Program-made: the position numbers and the translations under genes
Part shown: in pieces, positions 1,570 through 62,696 of the stretch
How the letters are laid out: every line of letters begins with the position of its first letter
How positions within the stretch are numbered: position 1 is the first letter of the stretch
The notes under the pieces: generated by a model
What the model saw: the letters and a program-made list of their open reading frames with translations, nothing else
What the model was told of the DNA's origin: nothing
The model's database searches: none
Source: Aureococcus anophagefferens
Taxonomy: Eukaryota > Sar > Pelagophyceae > Pelagomonadales > Pelagomonadaceae
DNA length: 64,000 nucleotides
Direction: 5' to 3'
Assembly: GCF_000186865.1 (NCBI RefSeq)
Contig: NW_008705564.1
Location: 1,965,494-2,029,493, forward strand

Positions 1570-4500
1570 ATGACCATGGACGCGTCCCCGAAGACCCCGA
1601 AGCGGGGCTCGCGGCGCTGGTCGCTGCTGAGCCTCACGCCGCTGCGGTCGTCGCTGAAGCACGCGCCCATCTCGCCCGTCGAGGAGGCGGCGGCGACGCC
1701 GGAGCCCGCGCCCGTCGCGGCGGCGGCGGCGGCGCTCCCGCCCGTCGTCCTCGAGGATTCGGCGTCCGAGGGCGAGGACGACGCGCTCGACTCCTTCGTG
1801 CGGGGCCTGCGCACTTCCACGACGTGCTGGGACTCGCCGCGGCCCTCCGGCCCCCGGGGCCCCGTCGCGAGCCTCGCGCCGGAGAGCAAGCGCGTCCTCG
1901 CCAACGTCGTCGCCCTCGTCTGGCAGCGGCGCACGCTCGCCGACCTCCACGGCGGCTGCTGCGACGGGCACCTCGCGGCCGCGGAGCGGCTGCTGCCGGA
2001 CATGGACCTGCCCGGGCTCAACTTCGACCCGCCGCGGCAGCAGTGCGGCGACGGCTGCATCGTCGGCTGCGTCGAGGAGCTGCTCGAGACGGCCCACGGC
2101 GTGTCGAAGCGCTTCGAGCTCGCCTGCGTCGCGGCGCTCCACGTCGTGGACCTCGACCCTTCTCGGTTCGAGATGCGCGTCAAGTCCGCCGAGCGCGCGT
2201 CGGAGAAGGCCGAGTTCGACTACGGCGCCAAGTCGCCGGGGCCGGGCTGCTCCTGGGTCTTCGACGCGCTGGCGGGGCGCGTGTCCGTCGACGACGAGGG
2301 CGCGCTGCTGCGCGTGCTCGCCGCGGTCGCGGCGACGCCGGGCGTCGCCGTCGTCGGGCTCAAGAACCGGTTCCGGTCTCCGACGTTCCTCGGGTACCGC
2401 GACGTGCTGGCGCTGCTGCGCTTCGAGCACGGCGCGGGGAGCTTCGTCTGCGAGCTGGGCCTCCACCTGCGGCCGCTCCTCGACTTCGACCGGCGCCACG
2501 GCTGCCGGGATTTGTACGCGGCTGTGTGGAAATCAACCACTCGTTTGGGTGGTCCTGACCAAACTTCAGACTTCTCTAGCTCGGTCAAATCGAAGTCGAT
2601 TCGGCTGATCTTTGGACGAATCGATTGCTCTGGTTGAGTTCTCGAAGCACAGCAGAAAACCTCGCGTCGAAACTGTCGCATGCGCTCACATTGAAGTCTG
2701 GTTGAAGATTTGAATTCCACACAGGTACGCGGAGTTCGAGCCGCTGCTCCGCGGCAAGGCGCCGGACGCGGCCGCGGCGACCGTGGGCGCGCTCCGGCGC
2801 CTGGGCGCGGACGTCCTCGCCAACGCCATGGCGGAGAACGAGCTCGAGGCCATTGTCGAGTCCGTGCGCGCGGGCGACGACGCCGCGCTCATCGGCGTCG
2901 TCGCCGACTTGGCGGAGCTCGGCTCCGACTTCGCGGCGTCGCTGCCGCTTCGGGAGCGGCTGCGGCACCTGGCGCCGGGCGACGCGGCGCTGAACCGGGC
3001 CTACGGGGTCGCGTGCCTCGAGGCGGGGGACGTGGACGTCGGCGTCGACGTGCTGAAGCGCGCCGCGGCGGAGATCGCCGACGACGACGCGACGGGCGGC
3101 GCCGCGGACACGATCGAGACCTACGGCGTCGTGCTGCTGGAGAAGGGCGAGCTCGAGGTCGCCATCAAGCAGCTGAAGCGCGCCGTCGACCTGCACCGGG
3201 CCGCGGGCCGCGCGGGCACGCTCGTCGAGGCGCGGTCGCTCCCAGGGCAGGAAAAGAGAGCGACATGCCCAACTTCTCCTCTCTCGGCTGTTTTCCACTC
3301 GTTTCGGCTGATTTTTGGACGAGCGATCATCTCTCGGAACGGTCTCGGAGCACGAATGCTGTTTACGGAACGCGCGCGCGCGGCACACTCACGTTGAAGC
3401 GACGTTGAATCACTCGTTTCCTGCCCAGGTCGCTCCACAACGTCGGCGTCGCGCTCCGGCGGAAGAAGGAGCCGCGCCTCGCGAAGCACGCGCTCAAGCG
3501 CGCGCTCGCCATCCGCGAGGCGAACCTCTGCGACGCCTGCGACGCCGTCAACAGCTCGCGCTTCAGCCTCGCGAACGTCCTCGACGACCTGGGGAAGCGG
3601 GACCGCGCCAAGGCCTTGTACGCCAAAATCCGCGAGGTCCACGCGGGGCTCCGCGACGACTGCGCGCGCACGCTCGAGCGCCTCGGCCAGCGCGCGACGA
3701 AGGTGCCCCTGGGGCGCGACTCCCAGAAGGACCGCGAGTCCGTGCCCCTCGGGCGGGGCGGCCACGGCGTCGCGGCGGCCGCGGGCGGCGACCGCGTGTC
3801 GCGCGGCGGCCTCCGGGGCAGCCGCCGCGGCGGCTCCGGGTCCTTCGGCGCGCAGCGGTCCGGGTCCGGCGCGGCGCCGCCGAATTCGGCGCGGGGCCAG
3901 GGCAGTCCCCAGCGGCCCTTCCGCGGCGCCGTGTCGCCCGACGACATGCGGTCGCTCAAGGTCGTCGCGACGGGCAGAGGACACGGGCTCGAGGTCCTCG
4001 ACGGCGGCCTGTTGGGCGTCAAGAACGACGAGGCGTTGAAGGACGGCGACGAGTACGCCCCCGGGTCCGTGCTGCTCTACGACGGCCGCTACGTCGGCGT
4101 CGTCGAGCGGGTCCTGGGGCGCGGCGCGTTCGGGACCGTGTGCGAATCAACCGCTGGTTTGGGACGTCCCGACCGAACTTTGAAATTCTCTCGCTCGGTC
4201 AAATCGAAGGCGATTCGGCTGATTTTTAGAGAGATCGATTTTTCTCATTGAGTTCTCGAAGCACAGCCGAAGCGTTTGTGTCGAACCGTTCGATCACGCG
4301 CACATTGAAGTCGGGTTGAAGATTTGACACAGGTTCGGGACCGTGCACCGCTTCGACGACGAGGAGACGGGCGAGTCGCTCGCCATGAAGTCGCTGAGCG
4401 GGCGCGACGGCCGCGCCTCCGGCGCGAAGCTGGAGGAGATGCTCTGCCAGGAGGCGGGGTTCTCCTTCGCCGTGGGCACGCACGCGAACCTCGTGTCCAT

Positions 4501-6633: not shown

Positions 6634-7820
6634 TTAGAGCAGCGGCCGCGCGAGTGCGGCGGCGACGACGGCGCCGATGAGCGTGTTGATGAAGTTGATG
6701 ACCTCGTTGGTGAAGATGCCGCCCTGGAGCGTCGCGCCGAGCCAGGACTCGCAGGTCGTCGCGACGAAGGCCGCGACCGCGGCGACGGGCACCATGGCGG
6801 GCGCCACGAGGCCCACGGCCGTCGCGTAGCCCGCGATGACGAGGCTCCCCGCGACGCCCGCGAGCGTGCCCTCGAGGGACACGGCGCCCTCCGTGCCCGG
6901 GGGCACGCGCTTCAGGGTCGTCGACAGGTAGCAGGTCTTGCCGTAGGCCTTGCCGATCTCCGACGCGAGCGTGTCGCCTGGGCAAGAAAAGAGTGCGAAA
7001 TTTCCAACTTTGCGTGGCGACGAACGACGGCGGCGACGTCGTCTTCGGGGCCGTGACCGTCGGCGCCGACGCGTTCGTCGGGCCCGCGGCGACGCTGCTG
7101 CCGGGCGCGCACGTGCGCGCCGGCGCCGCCGTCGGGGCCCACGCCGTCGTCGGGCCCACGTGGAGGCTCATGTCTCGGTCGTTTTCCACTCGTTTCGGCT
7201 AATTTTTGAACGAGCGATCATCTCTCGGAGCGCTCTCGACGCGTGGATGCTTTTTTTTCCGGAACGCGCGCGCGCGGAACACTCATGTTGAAGCGAACTT
7301 GAATCACTCTTTTCCTGCCCCGCGTGTCGCTGAGCTTCGTCGCCAGGGACGCGACGTACGCGACGGCGAGCAGGGGCCGCTGCGCCGGGTAGGCCTGGCC
7401 CAACAGCGCGCAGGCCGCGCCCGTCGCCGCCGAGCCCCAGACGTTCTCGGGCCCGCGGCGGCCGCCGCGGCCCTCGCCGATGCCCGCGGCGTCCTTCTCC
7501 GCCTGCTTTACCTTCGTCGCCGCGGACCCGGCGACGAGGTAGAGCACGCAGAGGCTGTAGCCCCGCCAGCCGACGAAGGAGCTGAGCAGGATCACGCCGA
7601 GCGCCCAGGCGTGCGCGAGGCCCGACGGCGTGAGCGACTTTTGCCGCGTGCCGATGCCGAAGGCCGCGAGGGCCGTGTTGACGGTGATGGCGTTCTCGAA
7701 GGGCGTGAGCTGCTGCGTCGTCGTTTTGGTGATTTTGAGAGGCTTGATTCTCGGGTGCGGCGCGATGAGGGCTGTGGTGGCGGCGCAGAGGCTCAGAAGT
7801 TGCAGCGCGCGTCGGGCCAT
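6634..7820 (-). CDS. VTE6: TMEM19/DUF92 family membrane protein, VTE6-like phytyl-phosphate kinase
   Basis: Exons 7820-7331 and 6977-6634 on the minus strand encode 277 residues. The family (DUF92) includes plant VTE6, which phosphorylates phytyl phosphate for tocopherol synthesis in the plastid envelope; VTE6 is the best guess here because the host is photosynthetic, but animal TMEM19 has no proven activity. Visible signatures are the conserved KLSDT-x-ASEIGKAYGKTCYL block, spanning the exon junction, and RVPPGTEGAVSLEGT, followed by hydrophobic helices and FTNEVINFINT. The N-terminus (MARRALQLLSLCAATTALIA) looks like a signal peptide, as expected for a plastid surrounded by four membranes. 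The single intron (6978-7330) is an introner with a GC donor and captured coding sequence. Confidence 0.82.
6978..7322 (+). mobile_element. family-B introner carrying a captured hexapeptide-repeat fragment
   Basis: 345-bp element with ends CTGGGCAAGAAAAG / CTTTTCCTGCCCCG and target-site duplication CGTGTCGC at 6970-6977 and 7323-7330. It is antisense to its host gene; on the host strand the duplication reads GCGACACG, so the intron 7330-6978 is GC-AG. Family-B sequence flanks an extra stretch of about 160 bp (about 7013-7172) absent from other copies. On the plus strand this insert reads as a run of isoleucine-patch hexapeptides (VVFGAV, TVGADA, FVGPAA, TLLPGA, HVRAGA, AVGAHA), typical of left-handed beta-helix acyltransferases. 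It cannot be a complete gene and lies antisense in the transcript. Confidence 0.88.
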
Positions 7821-9662: not shown

Positions 9663-10078
9663 GCCGCGAGGCCGCGGCGAGGCCGCGAGGCCGACGTCCG
9701 CGCCTTCGGCGCGTCGCCGTCGAGCATCTCCTCGACGCCCGTCAGCGTCGACGCGTCCCAGGCATCGACGCTCTCGTTGAAGGCGGCGTTGGCGTCGAAC
9801 AGCTCCTCCATCGTCGTCACCTTGGGCACGTTCCAGCCGCCGACGTCCTCGCGCCGGAGCGCGGCGACGGCTCGCGCGCGCCCGGGCCGCGAGGACGTCG
9901 GCGGCTGGAACGTGCCCAAGGTGACGACGATGGAGGAGCTGTTCGACGCCAACGCCGCCTTCAACGAGAGCGTCGATGCCTGGGACGCGTCGACGCTGAC
10001 GGGCGTCGAGGAGATGCTCGACGGCGACGCGCCGAAGGCGCGGACGTCGGCCTCGCGGCCTCGCCGCGGCCTCGCGGC
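9663..10078. repeat. perfect 191-bp inverted repeat containing DUF285 coding sequence
   Basis: Arms 9663-9853 and 9888-10078 are exact reverse complements around a 34-bp spacer. Each arm codes, read in opposite directions, for one DUF285 (BspA-like) unit: WNVPKVTTMEELFDANAAFN followed by ESVDAWDASTLTGVEEMLDG. DUF285 is a surface-protein repeat family. Because the left arm begins directly at the gap and there is no divergence between arms, a foldback misassembly is at least as likely as a real palindrome, so I do not call a complete gene on either strand. Confidence 0.85.
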
Positions 10079-17337: not shown

Positions 17338-19261
17338 ATGGTGTTCCTCCTGCAGCGCATGCCGCTGCTGTGCTTCCTCGTCGTCATCAATTCCGAACTC
17401 ACTCGCAACCACGCCGACTACACGTGCTGGACGAGCAAGCTCTGCGGCGGCGAGGAGAGCAAGCCCTGGCGCAAGGTCATCTGCCTGATCGTCGCCGTGT
17501 ACGCGTCCAAGGACCTGTTCAGCGACCTCGTGCGCGTGGGCGTCCAAGGGCCGGTGAGCGCCATGGAGGCGGTTCGCGCCGTCGGCTTCCTCTTCACGCC
17601 CGAGGCGCACGCGGCGCGTCTCGTCGCGGGCCTTGTCGTGCCGCAGCGCCACTGGTCCTTCAGCTGGAACCAGCTAGAGGACTTCGTGTACGCCTGCGGC
17701 CACGCGCTCTGCGCGCGCGAGCTGGGCATGCCGTGCGGCCACGGCGATCTCGCGGCGTACGGCGACCTCCTCGTGGGCCTCGGCCTCATCCAGGTCGTGA
17801 TCCACGTCGCGGAGAACGGCACGCCGACGCTGTTCCTCTGCGACGGCAACGTCGTCCTCTTCGTCAACAAGATCTTGTCCCTGGGTGGGCACGAGCAGTG
17901 CAAGGCCACGCCCACCCTCGTCCTGCTCATCTTCTTCTTCTTCGGCATCGGCGACGACGACATGCGGCAGTCGGCGCGCGCCTTCATTTACGCAGCCTGC
18001 CACTTTGGGGCAATGTCGATGTCCGGGGTCCACCTCCTGAACCAGTTCTTCACGGCCTACGACGCCACCGCCCACTTCCTCGCGATCGGACCGATCGCGA
18101 AGATCGTCGAAGCGGCCGGGAACCGCTTCCACTTCAGCGAGACGGCCTTCCTCGACGACGGCGCGGCCCGCGCGATCCTCGGGAACCAGATCAAGATCTC
18201 GACGTTCCTCCTCAAGATCCTCGGCGGCGAGCTCGCGACGCGCATGCTCGACGTGGGCTTCCCGTCGGAAGCCTGGGCCGCCAACATCGCGTCGTGCTGG
18301 GCCGCCCTCGAGGACCAGAAGGCCTCGACCTGTGTGCAAATCGACCACCGGTTTCGGACGTCCCGACCAAACTTCAGAATTCTCTAGCTCGGTCAAATCG
18401 AAGTCGATTCGGCTGATTTTTGGACGAATCGATTGCTCTCGTCGAGCTCTCGAAGCACGGCCGAACATCTCGCGTCAAAACGGTCAAATACGCTCACATT
18501 GAAGTCGGGTTGAAGATTTGAGTTCCACACAGGCCTCGACGGACCGTTTGAAAACAGCCTGGGGCGTGCCGGGCTTCGCCTGGCGCGCCGTCTTCATCTT
18601 CGGCGGCTCGCTGGGGCCGCAGTCGAGCCGCAGCGTGCTCCGTATCAAGGTCTCCTTCGCGTCCGGTGACGACGCGGCCCTGCGCCAGGCGCTCTTCGGC
18701 GTGATCGCCGTCGCGTTCGCGTTCGGCGAGCAAGTGTCCGGCCGCCCGCTCCGGCTTCCATCGTGGGTCAGCGACGACGTCATCAGCAACGCCGTCAAGA
18801 ACTTCCTCAAAGCCGGCACGCCCTGCATCCTCGCCCGGCTCGCGGTCACCATCGCCGCCGAATCAGCCGAGACCGCGACGCCCGCGGAGCCCTTCGGCCC
18901 CAGGCGCCGCCAGCTCTGCTCCGAGAGGTCTAGGGGCGTCGGCATCCCGGTGACGCTCGAGGAGGAGCTGCGCGGCGGCTTCGACGACCTCTTCGCGCGC
19001 GCCTCCTGGCCCGAGACCTTCACCTCCGTCTTCGCGGACTGCGCCTCCAACGGCCCCGCGGAGCGCCGGACCCGCCGCATCGAGGAGCTGCGCCGCCGGT
19101 TCGCGGCCGGGGACGACGCCGAGCGCCGCTACGACGTCGAGATCGAGGAGCGCGAGCTCCGCAATCGCGTGCTGTTGTGGCTGCGCGCGAGCCGCGCGGC
19201 GTCCGAGGAGCGGCGAGTGGAGCGGCGCGCGCGGCTCCTGCAGCGCCGCCACGAGACCTGA
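17338..19261 (+). CDS. lineage-specific membrane-associated protein, unknown function
   Basis: Exons 17338-18321 and 18533-19261 encode 570 residues. The N-terminus is hydrophobic (MVFLLQRMPLLCFLVVI) and a second hydrophobic stretch, LVLLIFFFFGIG, lies near residue 200, followed by the best-conserved part, MRQSARAFIYAACHFGAMSM then VHLLNQFFTAYDA. A damaged paralogue of exactly that part is at 25 kb, so this is a multi-copy family. The second exon is more soluble and ends in a charged helix (RRTRRIEELRRRFAAGDD). I recognise no known domain. The start is the first ATG of the open frame; an earlier exon cannot be excluded. The intron is a family-A introner with a GC donor. Confidence 0.65.
18330..18532 (+). 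mobile_element. introner element, family A, GC donor
   Basis: 203-bp element with ends CTGTGTGCAAA / GAGTTCCACACAG and target-site duplication GCCTCGAC at 18322-18329 and 18533-18540. The intron is 18322-18532. Using the GT within the element's own terminal repeat instead would add ten bases and break the frame, so the GC of the duplication must be the donor. Confidence 0.92.
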
Positions 19262-46406: not shown

Positions 46407-47378
46407 ATGAGCGGAGATATGAATTGGAGGGACAAGAAGCGCGAGTATGAAGAGAGGATGGCCCGAGTGAAGAACGCCAAGCTCCGTACGCTTTGCACAA
46501 TTTGCTCGGCGAAAGCGAAGCTTTTATGCCCCTGTGGAACGACTCAATATTGCTCGGTAGCGTGCCAAAAGGTCGACTGGCGCGAGCGGGGCCACCGCAC
46601 GGCGTGTAAGAAGATCCGTGACGACCGGGCCGCGGAGGCGGCGCGGGCGGAGGCGCCGACGCCCCCGCCGCCGCCGCCGCGGGAGGTCTTCTACGGCCCC
46701 GCGCCGCGGTCGCACGCCGACGAGATCCGCGCGCGCATCGCCGCCGAGCACGAGGCCGCGCGTCTGCGGCGCGAGGCGAACCCGGAGCCGGAACCGATAT
46801 CGGCGCGGTACGGATCGCGGTGCCCAGTCTGCTTGGAGAAGTGGGACGTGAATGAGCGGTTCGTGTTTCAAGCCTGTTGCGCGCGGCTGGTCTGCGAGTC
46901 TTGTGAGGAAAGAAACGGTGAGGCGCCGTGTACTCTCTGTCGGGCGCCGTATCCGAAGTCGCATGCTGAAATGCTGGCCCAGACTCGTCGCCACGTGGAA
47001 AACGACGTGCCTGAGGCGATCACGCATTTGGCGCATGCGTACCGAACGGGTGACCTCGGCCTCCCTCAAAATTTCAAGAAGACCGTGAAAATCTACAAGC
47101 GCGCTATTGAGCTCGGAGACGGGGAGGCCATGACCGCGCTTGGCTATATGTACCAGCACGGCAGAGGCGTCAAGTTGGACCCGAAGAAGGCGGAAACGCT
47201 GTATCGCAAGGGCGCGGCAAGGGGGCACTTCGCGTCTCAGTACAACCTTGGACGACTGGAAAGGGACGCCGGAAACATCGAAGAAGCGCGGCGATGGTAT
47301 GCCCTCTCGGCTGCCCAAGGACTTACTGACGCCAAATCCGCGCTCGCGCGGCTCGACGCCGCGGCCGGTGACTCGTAA
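46407..47378 (+). CDS. MYND finger, RING-like and Sel1-repeat protein
   Basis: 323 residues. N-terminal MYND-type zinc finger (CTICSAKAKLLCPCGTTQYC then CQKVDWRERGHRTAC, about 30-66), a charged proline linker, a RING-like finger (CPVCLEKWDVNER, CCARLVCESCEE, CTLCRAPYP, about 135-185) and Sel1/TPR-like repeats (GEAMTALGYMYQHGRG, HFASQYNLGRLERDAGN, about 215-315). A paralogue with the same order lies at 61395-62696. These multi-finger Sel1 proteins form a large family in this lineage; they may act as ubiquitin ligases or assembly scaffolds, but that is inference. The zinc ligands of both fingers are complete. The start ATG at 46407 gives the same lead (MSGDMNWRDKKREYEE) as the paralogue. Confidence 0.88.
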   Translation: MSGDMNWRDKKREYEERMARVKNAKLRTLCTICSAKAKLLCPCGTTQYCSVACQKVDWRERGHRTACKKIRDDRAAEAARAEAPTPPPPPPREVFYGPAPRSHADEIRARIAAEHEAARLRREANPEPEPISARYGSRCPVCLEKWDVNERFVFQACCARLVCESCEERNGEAPCTLCRAPYPKSHAEMLAQTRRHVENDVPEAITHLAHAYRTGDLGLPQNFKKTVKIYKRAIELGDGEAMTALGYMYQHGRGVKLDPKKAETLYRKGAARGHFASQYNLGRLERDAGNIEEARRWYALSAAQGLTDAKSALARLDAAAGDS

Positions 47379-61394: not shown

Positions 61395-62696
61395 CTACTT
61401 CGTAGTACTACTTTCACCTGTCTCTGCTACTTGTAGTAGTTCGCCGATAGTTCGAAGACGCTCGTTCGCTGGCTCAAATCCCTTGGAGGCCGCGAGAACG
61501 TACAATCGTAAGGCTTCTTCGAGATCGCGCTCCACAAACGTTCCGGTCTCGTATGCTGCTCCGAGATTGTATTCGGCAAATGGCAATCCTAAATTCAAGA
61601 TGGACTTCCAGTACAACACGGACTGCTCGGAAACACACATGCCGTTGTCGTTCTCAAGCGCGGCGATGGATTCCCTGTGTCCTTTGGCGGCCGCTCGCGC
61701 ATACCAGCGTCTGGCATCATCGACACGTCCGAGGTTGTTCTGGTAGTTTCCAAACGCATATTCAGCACAGGTCAAGCCTTGAAGTGCAGCGAGCTCGTAG
61801 TAGTTCATGGCTTCGAGGTAGTGGGGCTCATCAAGACTGAGTAGCAAATGGGCGAGATTGTTTTGCGCTGTTGCAAGGCCCCCGTCCGCAGCCGTGCGAT
61901 ACAGCCGGAGCGCCTTCTGCTTGTCCACCTTGCCTCCCTCGCCGCTCACATACATATACGCAAGCTTTGAAAAGGCATCCAAATCCCCGAGCTCCGCGGC
62001 GCGCTTCCAGATCTTCATGGCTTTCTTCATGTTCTGCTGGACGCCATGCTGACCGTTCGCGTAGAGTACTCCCAGCTCGGTTATAGCTTCCGGCACCTCG
62101 TTCTCCACGTGGCGACGAATCGTCGCGAGATGTTCCGCGTCGTCTTTCGGGCACGGTGCTCGACAGAGAGGACATGGCTTGTTTTGGGTCTTCTTGTTGC
62201 ACGATGCGCAGATCTTCTGCACGCAGCAGGAGCGAAACCAATGCGTTTCATTTATGTCCCAGTCCTCGAGGCAGACCAAGCAACGCGACCCGAACCGCAC
62301 CGACCCGTGGAGTAAAGGCTTTTCTGGCTCCGGGTTCGCCTCTCGCCGCGTGCGAGCGGCCTCGTGCTCCGCGGCGATGCGCGCGCGGACCTCATCCGCG
62401 TGCGACCGCGGCGCGGGGCCGTAGACCGGGGGCGACGGCGGGGGCGTCGGCGCCTCCGCCCGCGCCGCCTCTGCCGCGCGCTCGTTTCGGATCTTCTTGC
62501 ACGCCTTGCGGTGGCCGCGCTCGCGCCAGTCGATGCGTTGACATTCCGTCGAGCAATACTGCGTCGTCCCGCACGGGCAATTGAGTTTCGCTTTTGCGCC
62601 GCAGATGGTACAGGTCAAACGCAGCTTCAGGGCTTTCGCCCGAGCCTTGACCTTCTCGAACTCCTTCTGCTTCTTTTGCCAGTCGGGGACGTCCAT
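61395..62696 (-). CDS. MYND finger, RING-like and Sel1-repeat protein, longer paralogue
   Basis: 433 residues. Same layout as the protein at 46407: MYND finger (CTICGAKAKLNCPCGTTQYC, CQRIDWRERGHRKAC), linker PTPPPSPPVYGPAPRSHADE that is almost identical in both, RING-like finger (CLVCLEDWDINETHW, CCVQKICASC, CPLCRAPCP) and Sel1 repeats, here about seven (LDAFSKLAYMYVSGEGG, GLATAQNNLAHLLLS, PFAEYNLGAAYETGTFVERD). The extra 110 residues are additional Sel1 units. The two genes are 15 kb apart on opposite strands, so they are dispersed duplicates. The Sel1 half is AT-richer than the finger half. The start at 62696 parallels the paralogue's start. Confidence 0.9.
   Translation of the reverse strand: MDVPDWQKKQKEFEKVKARAKALKLRLTCTICGAKAKLNCPCGTTQYCSTECQRIDWRERGHRKACKKIRNERAAEAARAEAPTPPPSPPVYGPAPRSHADEVRARIAAEHEAARTRREANPEPEKPLLHGSVRFGSRCLVCLEDWDINETHWFRSCCVQKICASCNKKTQNKPCPLCRAPCPKDDAEHLATIRRHVENEVPEAITELGVLYANGQHGVQQNMKKAMKIWKRAAELGDLDAFSKLAYMYVSGEGGKVDKQKALRLYRTAADGGLATAQNNLAHLLLSLDEPHYLEAMNYYELAALQGLTCAEYAFGNYQNNLGRVDDARRWYARAAAKGHRESIAALENDNGMCVSEQSVLYWKSILNLGLPFAEYNLGAAYETGTFVERDLEEALRLYVLAASKGFEPANERLRTIGELLQVAETGESSTTK

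Follow-up and report, generated by a model that had tools for sequence, protein, structure and literature searches.

Introners are a leading explanation of bulk intron gain (PMC9860276). According to that paper, an Aureococcus introner adds 12 nt to the mRNA, made up of 4 bp of the element and 8 bp of duplication. The copy described here resembles these elements in its terminal inverted repeats, its 8-bp duplication, the position of both splice sites inside the element, the 12 nt added to the mRNA (predicted in the present case) and its many copies, but, unlike them, it holds a fragment of a host gene. The words 'cargo' and 'gene fragment' are absent from the main text of that paper. In the literature searched, mostly papers available without subscription, introners were found paired with exon shuffling and were not found paired with cargo or gene fragments. 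The Pack-TYPE transposons of plants, as presented in PMC8903248 and PMC13317346, are likewise non-autonomous, have inverted repeats and enclose coding DNA of the host; our introner differs from them in acting as an intron, in its unbroken backbone and in a cargo whose movement is putative. Class 2 templated insertions (PMC5110952) are marked by microhomology, added bases and no target-site duplication. These insertion polymorphisms share with our insert a short overlap at the edges, possible filler and a polymorphic state, and may share with it an origin as a patch from a distant gene. They were described in the human genome, whereas the target here is an introner in an alga and the donor edges were compared as protein only.

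The window, i.e. the whole stretch of 64,000 nucleotides of Aureococcus anophagefferens DNA that was analysed, lies on contig C4 of an assembly of 49.05 Mb and 86 contigs, which was the genome searched. The introner is located in a minus-strand gene assigned to DUF92 (E 2.2e-55), with the following features.

7319..7820, minus strand: exon 1 of the DUF92 host gene (phytol kinase family)
6634..6977, minus strand: exon 2 of the DUF92 host gene (phytol kinase family), including the stop codon
6978..7318, minus strand: predicted GC-AG intron of the DUF92 host gene, 341 nt (GC at 7318-7317, AG at 6979-6978; splicing predicted)
6978..7010, minus strand: final 33 nt of the host intron, insert-free
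6978..7322, no strand: introner of family B, 345 bp including the 150-bp insert; its terminal inverted repeats are imperfect, CTGGGCAAGAAAAGAGTG / CACTCTTTTCCTGCCCCG
6970..6977, no strand: target-site duplication CGTGTCGC, left copy
7323..7330, no strand: target-site duplication CGTGTCGC, right copy
7011..7160, plus strand: captured fragment of a hexapeptide-repeat gene, 150 bp, 50 codons (alignment, frame, Pfam match, donor protein)

The introner thus has the inverted repeats, though imperfect, and the 8-bp target-site duplication (8/8 bases matching) of the Aureococcus type, and many similar copies exist: a pattern with the normal internal spacing had 1,049 exact matches (501 + 548) in the assembly. 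Within a single copy, the two arms of the inverted repeat tended toward the same variants, GCAGCAAAAG with CTTTTGCTGC and GCAGGACAAG with CTTGTCCTGC, an observation on three copies (L055:1482-1831 and L056:1482-1829 on contig C5, and 6978-7322 in the window) rather than a family-wide count. The matched arms look as if they had been made alike at transposition.

Predicted splicing yields KLSDT-RGDT-LASEIGK, a 12-nt addition that restores the reading frame, as judged by sequence only; the intron, if retained, runs into stops. The host protein is near-identical to the A. anophagefferens phytol kinase P0006 across most of exon 1, the later part of P0006 appearing frame-shifted. Protein searches with the host site (P0002-P0021, P0122) covered the best 120 of the 7,998 and 7,995 candidates that were scored, which were those with the most words in common with the query. 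Among the matches listed, P0002-P0004 have the uninterrupted counterpart, KLSDTLASEIGK, and in P0016-P0019 and P0021 exon 1 is followed by introner-like sequence at this position or next to it, indicating that the site exists both empty and filled in nature. The frames of P0016-P0019 and P0021 end before the position of the insert. Since the insert leaves intact both the 5' splice site and the final 33 nt on the 3' side, the introner-derived intron is probably still spliced out, and the additional DNA is probably tolerated by the host gene.

Alignment with 11 family copies placed the extra 150 bases between CCAACTT and GGAGGCTC, and they were missing from all 11. Because TG is present at both edges, the span 7013-7162 is equally possible as 7011-7160. 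The focal copy is 153 bp longer than L002 and L004, owing to the 150-bp block and to three additional T further on. A preliminary description of this DNA had reported an excess of about 150 bp over other family-B copies, with family sequence resuming on both sides and with intact termini and duplication, all of which was confirmed; it had put the excess at about 7013-7172, which overshoots on the right by about 10 bases.

In the plus frame, 7011-7160 comprises 50 codons that are free of stops and all end in G or C. It spells seven hexads (DVVFGA VTVGAD AFVGPA ATLLPG AHVRAG AAVGAH AVVGPT), in agreement with the at least seven uninterrupted plus-strand units antisense to the host gene that had been described. 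The frame scored 30.6 bits (E 2.4e-7) against Pfam Hexapep (PF00132), above the cut-off of 27 bits. A scan of the 49-Mb genome in six frames returned 36 Hexapep matches at E≤1, with the insert among them (24.3 bits; 29.6 with its neighbours), so that its match is more than chance. The GC content by codon position was 0.84/0.58/0.98, the last value leaving out the final codon, which likewise ends in G. This pattern fits best that of the window's long open frames (GC3 near 0.97); one minus frame of the insert also has a high GC3, but its GC1 and GC2 are reversed. The suggested link between intron gain and exon shuffling was not borne out at this locus, where the piece is antisense to DUF92 and intronic, with 33 nt separating it from the 3' end of the intron.

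When the plus frame was compared with a large protein collection, two proteins were found at E≤0.001, P0227 and P0226. The former, A. anophagefferens SO694_00045219, is encoded on a 341-kb contig of a conspecific genome, shares 46/47 residues with the insert and extends past both of its edges. The final two codons of the insert read PT where this protein has NA. P0227 aligns over its length to frames on contigs C2 (residues 7-174, 45%) and C1 (residues 13-170, 37%), and its flanks therefore belong to the same kind of protein. Through this match, the element holds host coding DNA between terminal repeats, as Pack-TYPE elements do. We conclude with high confidence that the introner contains a captured fragment of a host gene whose protein is known in the species. 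The preliminary description had named the lack of a donor gene anywhere, and an assembly error, as what would speak against capture; the first is countered by P0227.

The donor acyltransferase gene that the preliminary description proposed to look for in the genome was not found in this assembly; in the species it is known from the conspecific protein. With the whole donor protein as query, the assembly returned, apart from the insert itself, relatives at 34-45% identity only. Gene loss, strain difference and an assembly gap are all possible explanations, the gene being either missing here or unassembled. As DNA, the insert had no second site in the assembly, and the next-best match, 70% identical and on contig C28, was rejected as donor because it is a GC-rich repetitive stretch. 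As protein, the insert matched itself and six places at 47-58% identity (best tblastn match, 60%). One locus on C8 (L019, C8:1047793) lies in a hexapeptide frame and is 75% identical as DNA across 101 bp, but with 58-60% identity as protein it is a relative and not the donor. A search of viral contigs with 33 bases of the insert found no match. The donor protein resembles the Pls/PosA NRPS terminal domain (TIGR02353) but lies far under the family cut-off of 423 bits, the scores being 17.2 for the insert and 22.1 for the donor, while 702 aa of the C1 relative scored 83.8. Pls/PosA-like hexapeptide domains occur within open frames of 1,529 to 3,437 aa at four loci (L016, L017, L018 and L021, on C1, C2, C8 and C17).

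We considered the possibility that the insert arose by chimeric assembly, or is a GC-rich frame that mimics hexapeptides by chance. The window does contain many long false frames, in a GC-rich genome, yet the agreement with a named conspecific protein in 46/47 residues speaks against this. As for a chimera, P0226 is the window's own frame, starting at GTG within the element, and is found on two contigs of which the longest has 712 bp (the window's contig has 3 Mb). Furthermore, among the matches listed, the JGI protein P0122 is found on two contigs (longest, 1,264 bp) and holds exon 2, the tail of the intron across the same insert edge and a stretch of 38 residues that it shares without change with another antisense frame of the insert. 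An assembly error is therefore unlikely, since database proteins from other, short contigs carry the same insert, and we regard artefact and chance together as extremely improbable. In a comparison at the protein level, P0122 also has about 53 further GC-rich residues in between. These residues, inside the captured piece, are unexplained and may represent an allele with a second, nested insertion or a repeat expansion.

How did the fragment enter the introner? We consider it fairly likely that the 6978-7322 copy is a resident introner that was patched from a conspecific hexapeptide gene at a double-strand break. A non-autonomous DNA-transposon introner would have created the intron in the DUF92 gene; a break would have arisen inside this resident element, and end joining would have closed it with a 150-bp patch templated by a conspecific gene of the hexapeptide-repeat (left-handed beta-helix) kind. 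Capture would then follow transposition, the intron would continue to be spliced and the host gene would tolerate the patch. This reading fits best because the insert is at one site, the backbone is unbroken, the overlap is 2 bp and the codons at one edge are not those of the donor, as expected for filler. In line with Class 2 insertions, comparison with the 11 copies revealed TG as the sole overlap at the edges of an uninterrupted backbone and no target-site duplication of the insert, with a CGTGG repeat near both edges. CGTGG occurs at both 7013-7017 and 7159-7163, and at that point in 0/11 aligned copies; if it were a 5-bp duplication, it would point to another insertion route and count against a break-repair patch. 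No introner-bearing allele of the DUF92 site without the insert was seen, and this order of events is therefore putative.

The alternative is a Pack-type capture, in which uptake of the fragment preceded or accompanied the jump of the introner into the DUF92 gene, and the element brought it there. The preliminary description had drawn this conclusion, that the cargo entered before or during transposition, from the intact ends. Intact ends do not date the capture, because an insertion into a resident introner leaves the termini and the duplication equally intact. Nor did the assembly support it: other introners with this insert were looked for and not found, and the hexapeptide sequence was found at one site only. 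A pattern allowing +135 to +195 bases had 3 matches, which were the focal copy and two introners on C5; +73 to +133 bases gave 0 matches in the assembly and +197 to +257 bases gave 1, whose right end is a normal copy (C1:2490823-2490966) and which probably represents two adjacent elements. All these counts are lower bounds, since the patterns require exact motifs.

The two C5 introners argue for Pack-type capture and count against a break-repair patch, as they demonstrate that an insert can end up in two introners. They lie 12.6 kb apart with different flanks (L055 and L056) and have in common another insert, about 160 bp long and at a different internal position, without a single difference across the 160 bases aligned. 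A variant adjoining this insert is confined to these two among 26 copies compared. In L056 the duplication, GTGCTACC, is perfect, and the GC-AG intron is in frame and adds 12 nt. Against this, the duplication of L055 is imperfect (5/8), and its frame, as read by eye, is not restored. Moreover, the backbones differ at 12/188 positions and the insert at 0/160 (Fisher p 6e-4), so that gene conversion between neighbours is also possible, and the backbones, flanking bases included, are 91% identical, a value not unusual for the family (median 88%, 95th percentile 92%). Either an element already loaded with the insert transposed, after which the many unloaded copies served to rewrite its backbone, or one introner acquired the insert by copying from the other; both histories are possible, and either implies that cargo can spread among introners. 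The nearest other match to the C5 insert (C18:46474-46606; 83% overall, with 3 differences counted by hand within the first 81 bases and gaps beyond them) is GC-rich and repetitive with weak codon-position bias, and the C5 cargo is therefore probably non-coding. Pieces of a GCCTACGTAGGCG-type repeat common to both C5 loci (L065, L066, L067) lie 200-450 bp downstream of the loaded introners. For the focal copy, we regard Pack-type capture as rather unlikely.

A hybrid element, as proposed for Pack-CACTA, would arise when two adjacent introners lose their facing ends and the intervening DNA becomes internal. This route has been described for plant elements (accessible text of PMC13317346), introners are dense here and two copies lie near the C18 stretch. 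Yet independent breakpoints should leave a gap or an overlap in the backbone; the focal copy has neither, and between the C5 copies the difference at the insert edge is about 3 bases, making this origin very improbable.

Introners can take up host DNA, and it is possible that they carry genes about. The earlier proposal that they move host fragments in the manner of Pack-type transposons gains indirect support from the other insert, present in two C5 introners, and not from the focal cargo, found at one site. It would be a tentative and somewhat doubtful extension to view introners as a Pack-type system inside genes, which collects host DNA and carries it to new genes while splicing hides the cargo from selection, forming a moving archive of fragments, including genes since lost by the strain, for later recruitment as exons. 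If coding fragments, too, are acquired and retained by introners, the gain of introns and the supply of exons would be physically linked, and such a link can be tested by comparing strains within one alga.

Other repeats were observed in the window. A perfect inverted repeat has its 191-nt arms at 9663-9853 and 9888-10078, separated by 34 nt. Several long inverted matches (246, 104 and 99 nt; 73-90%) connect 46434-47023 with 62080-62672 in the same order and resemble an inverted duplicated segment. A second repeat family of about 204 nt (76-88% identity; 2522-2725, 4136-4339 and 18330-18533) is perhaps another introner family.
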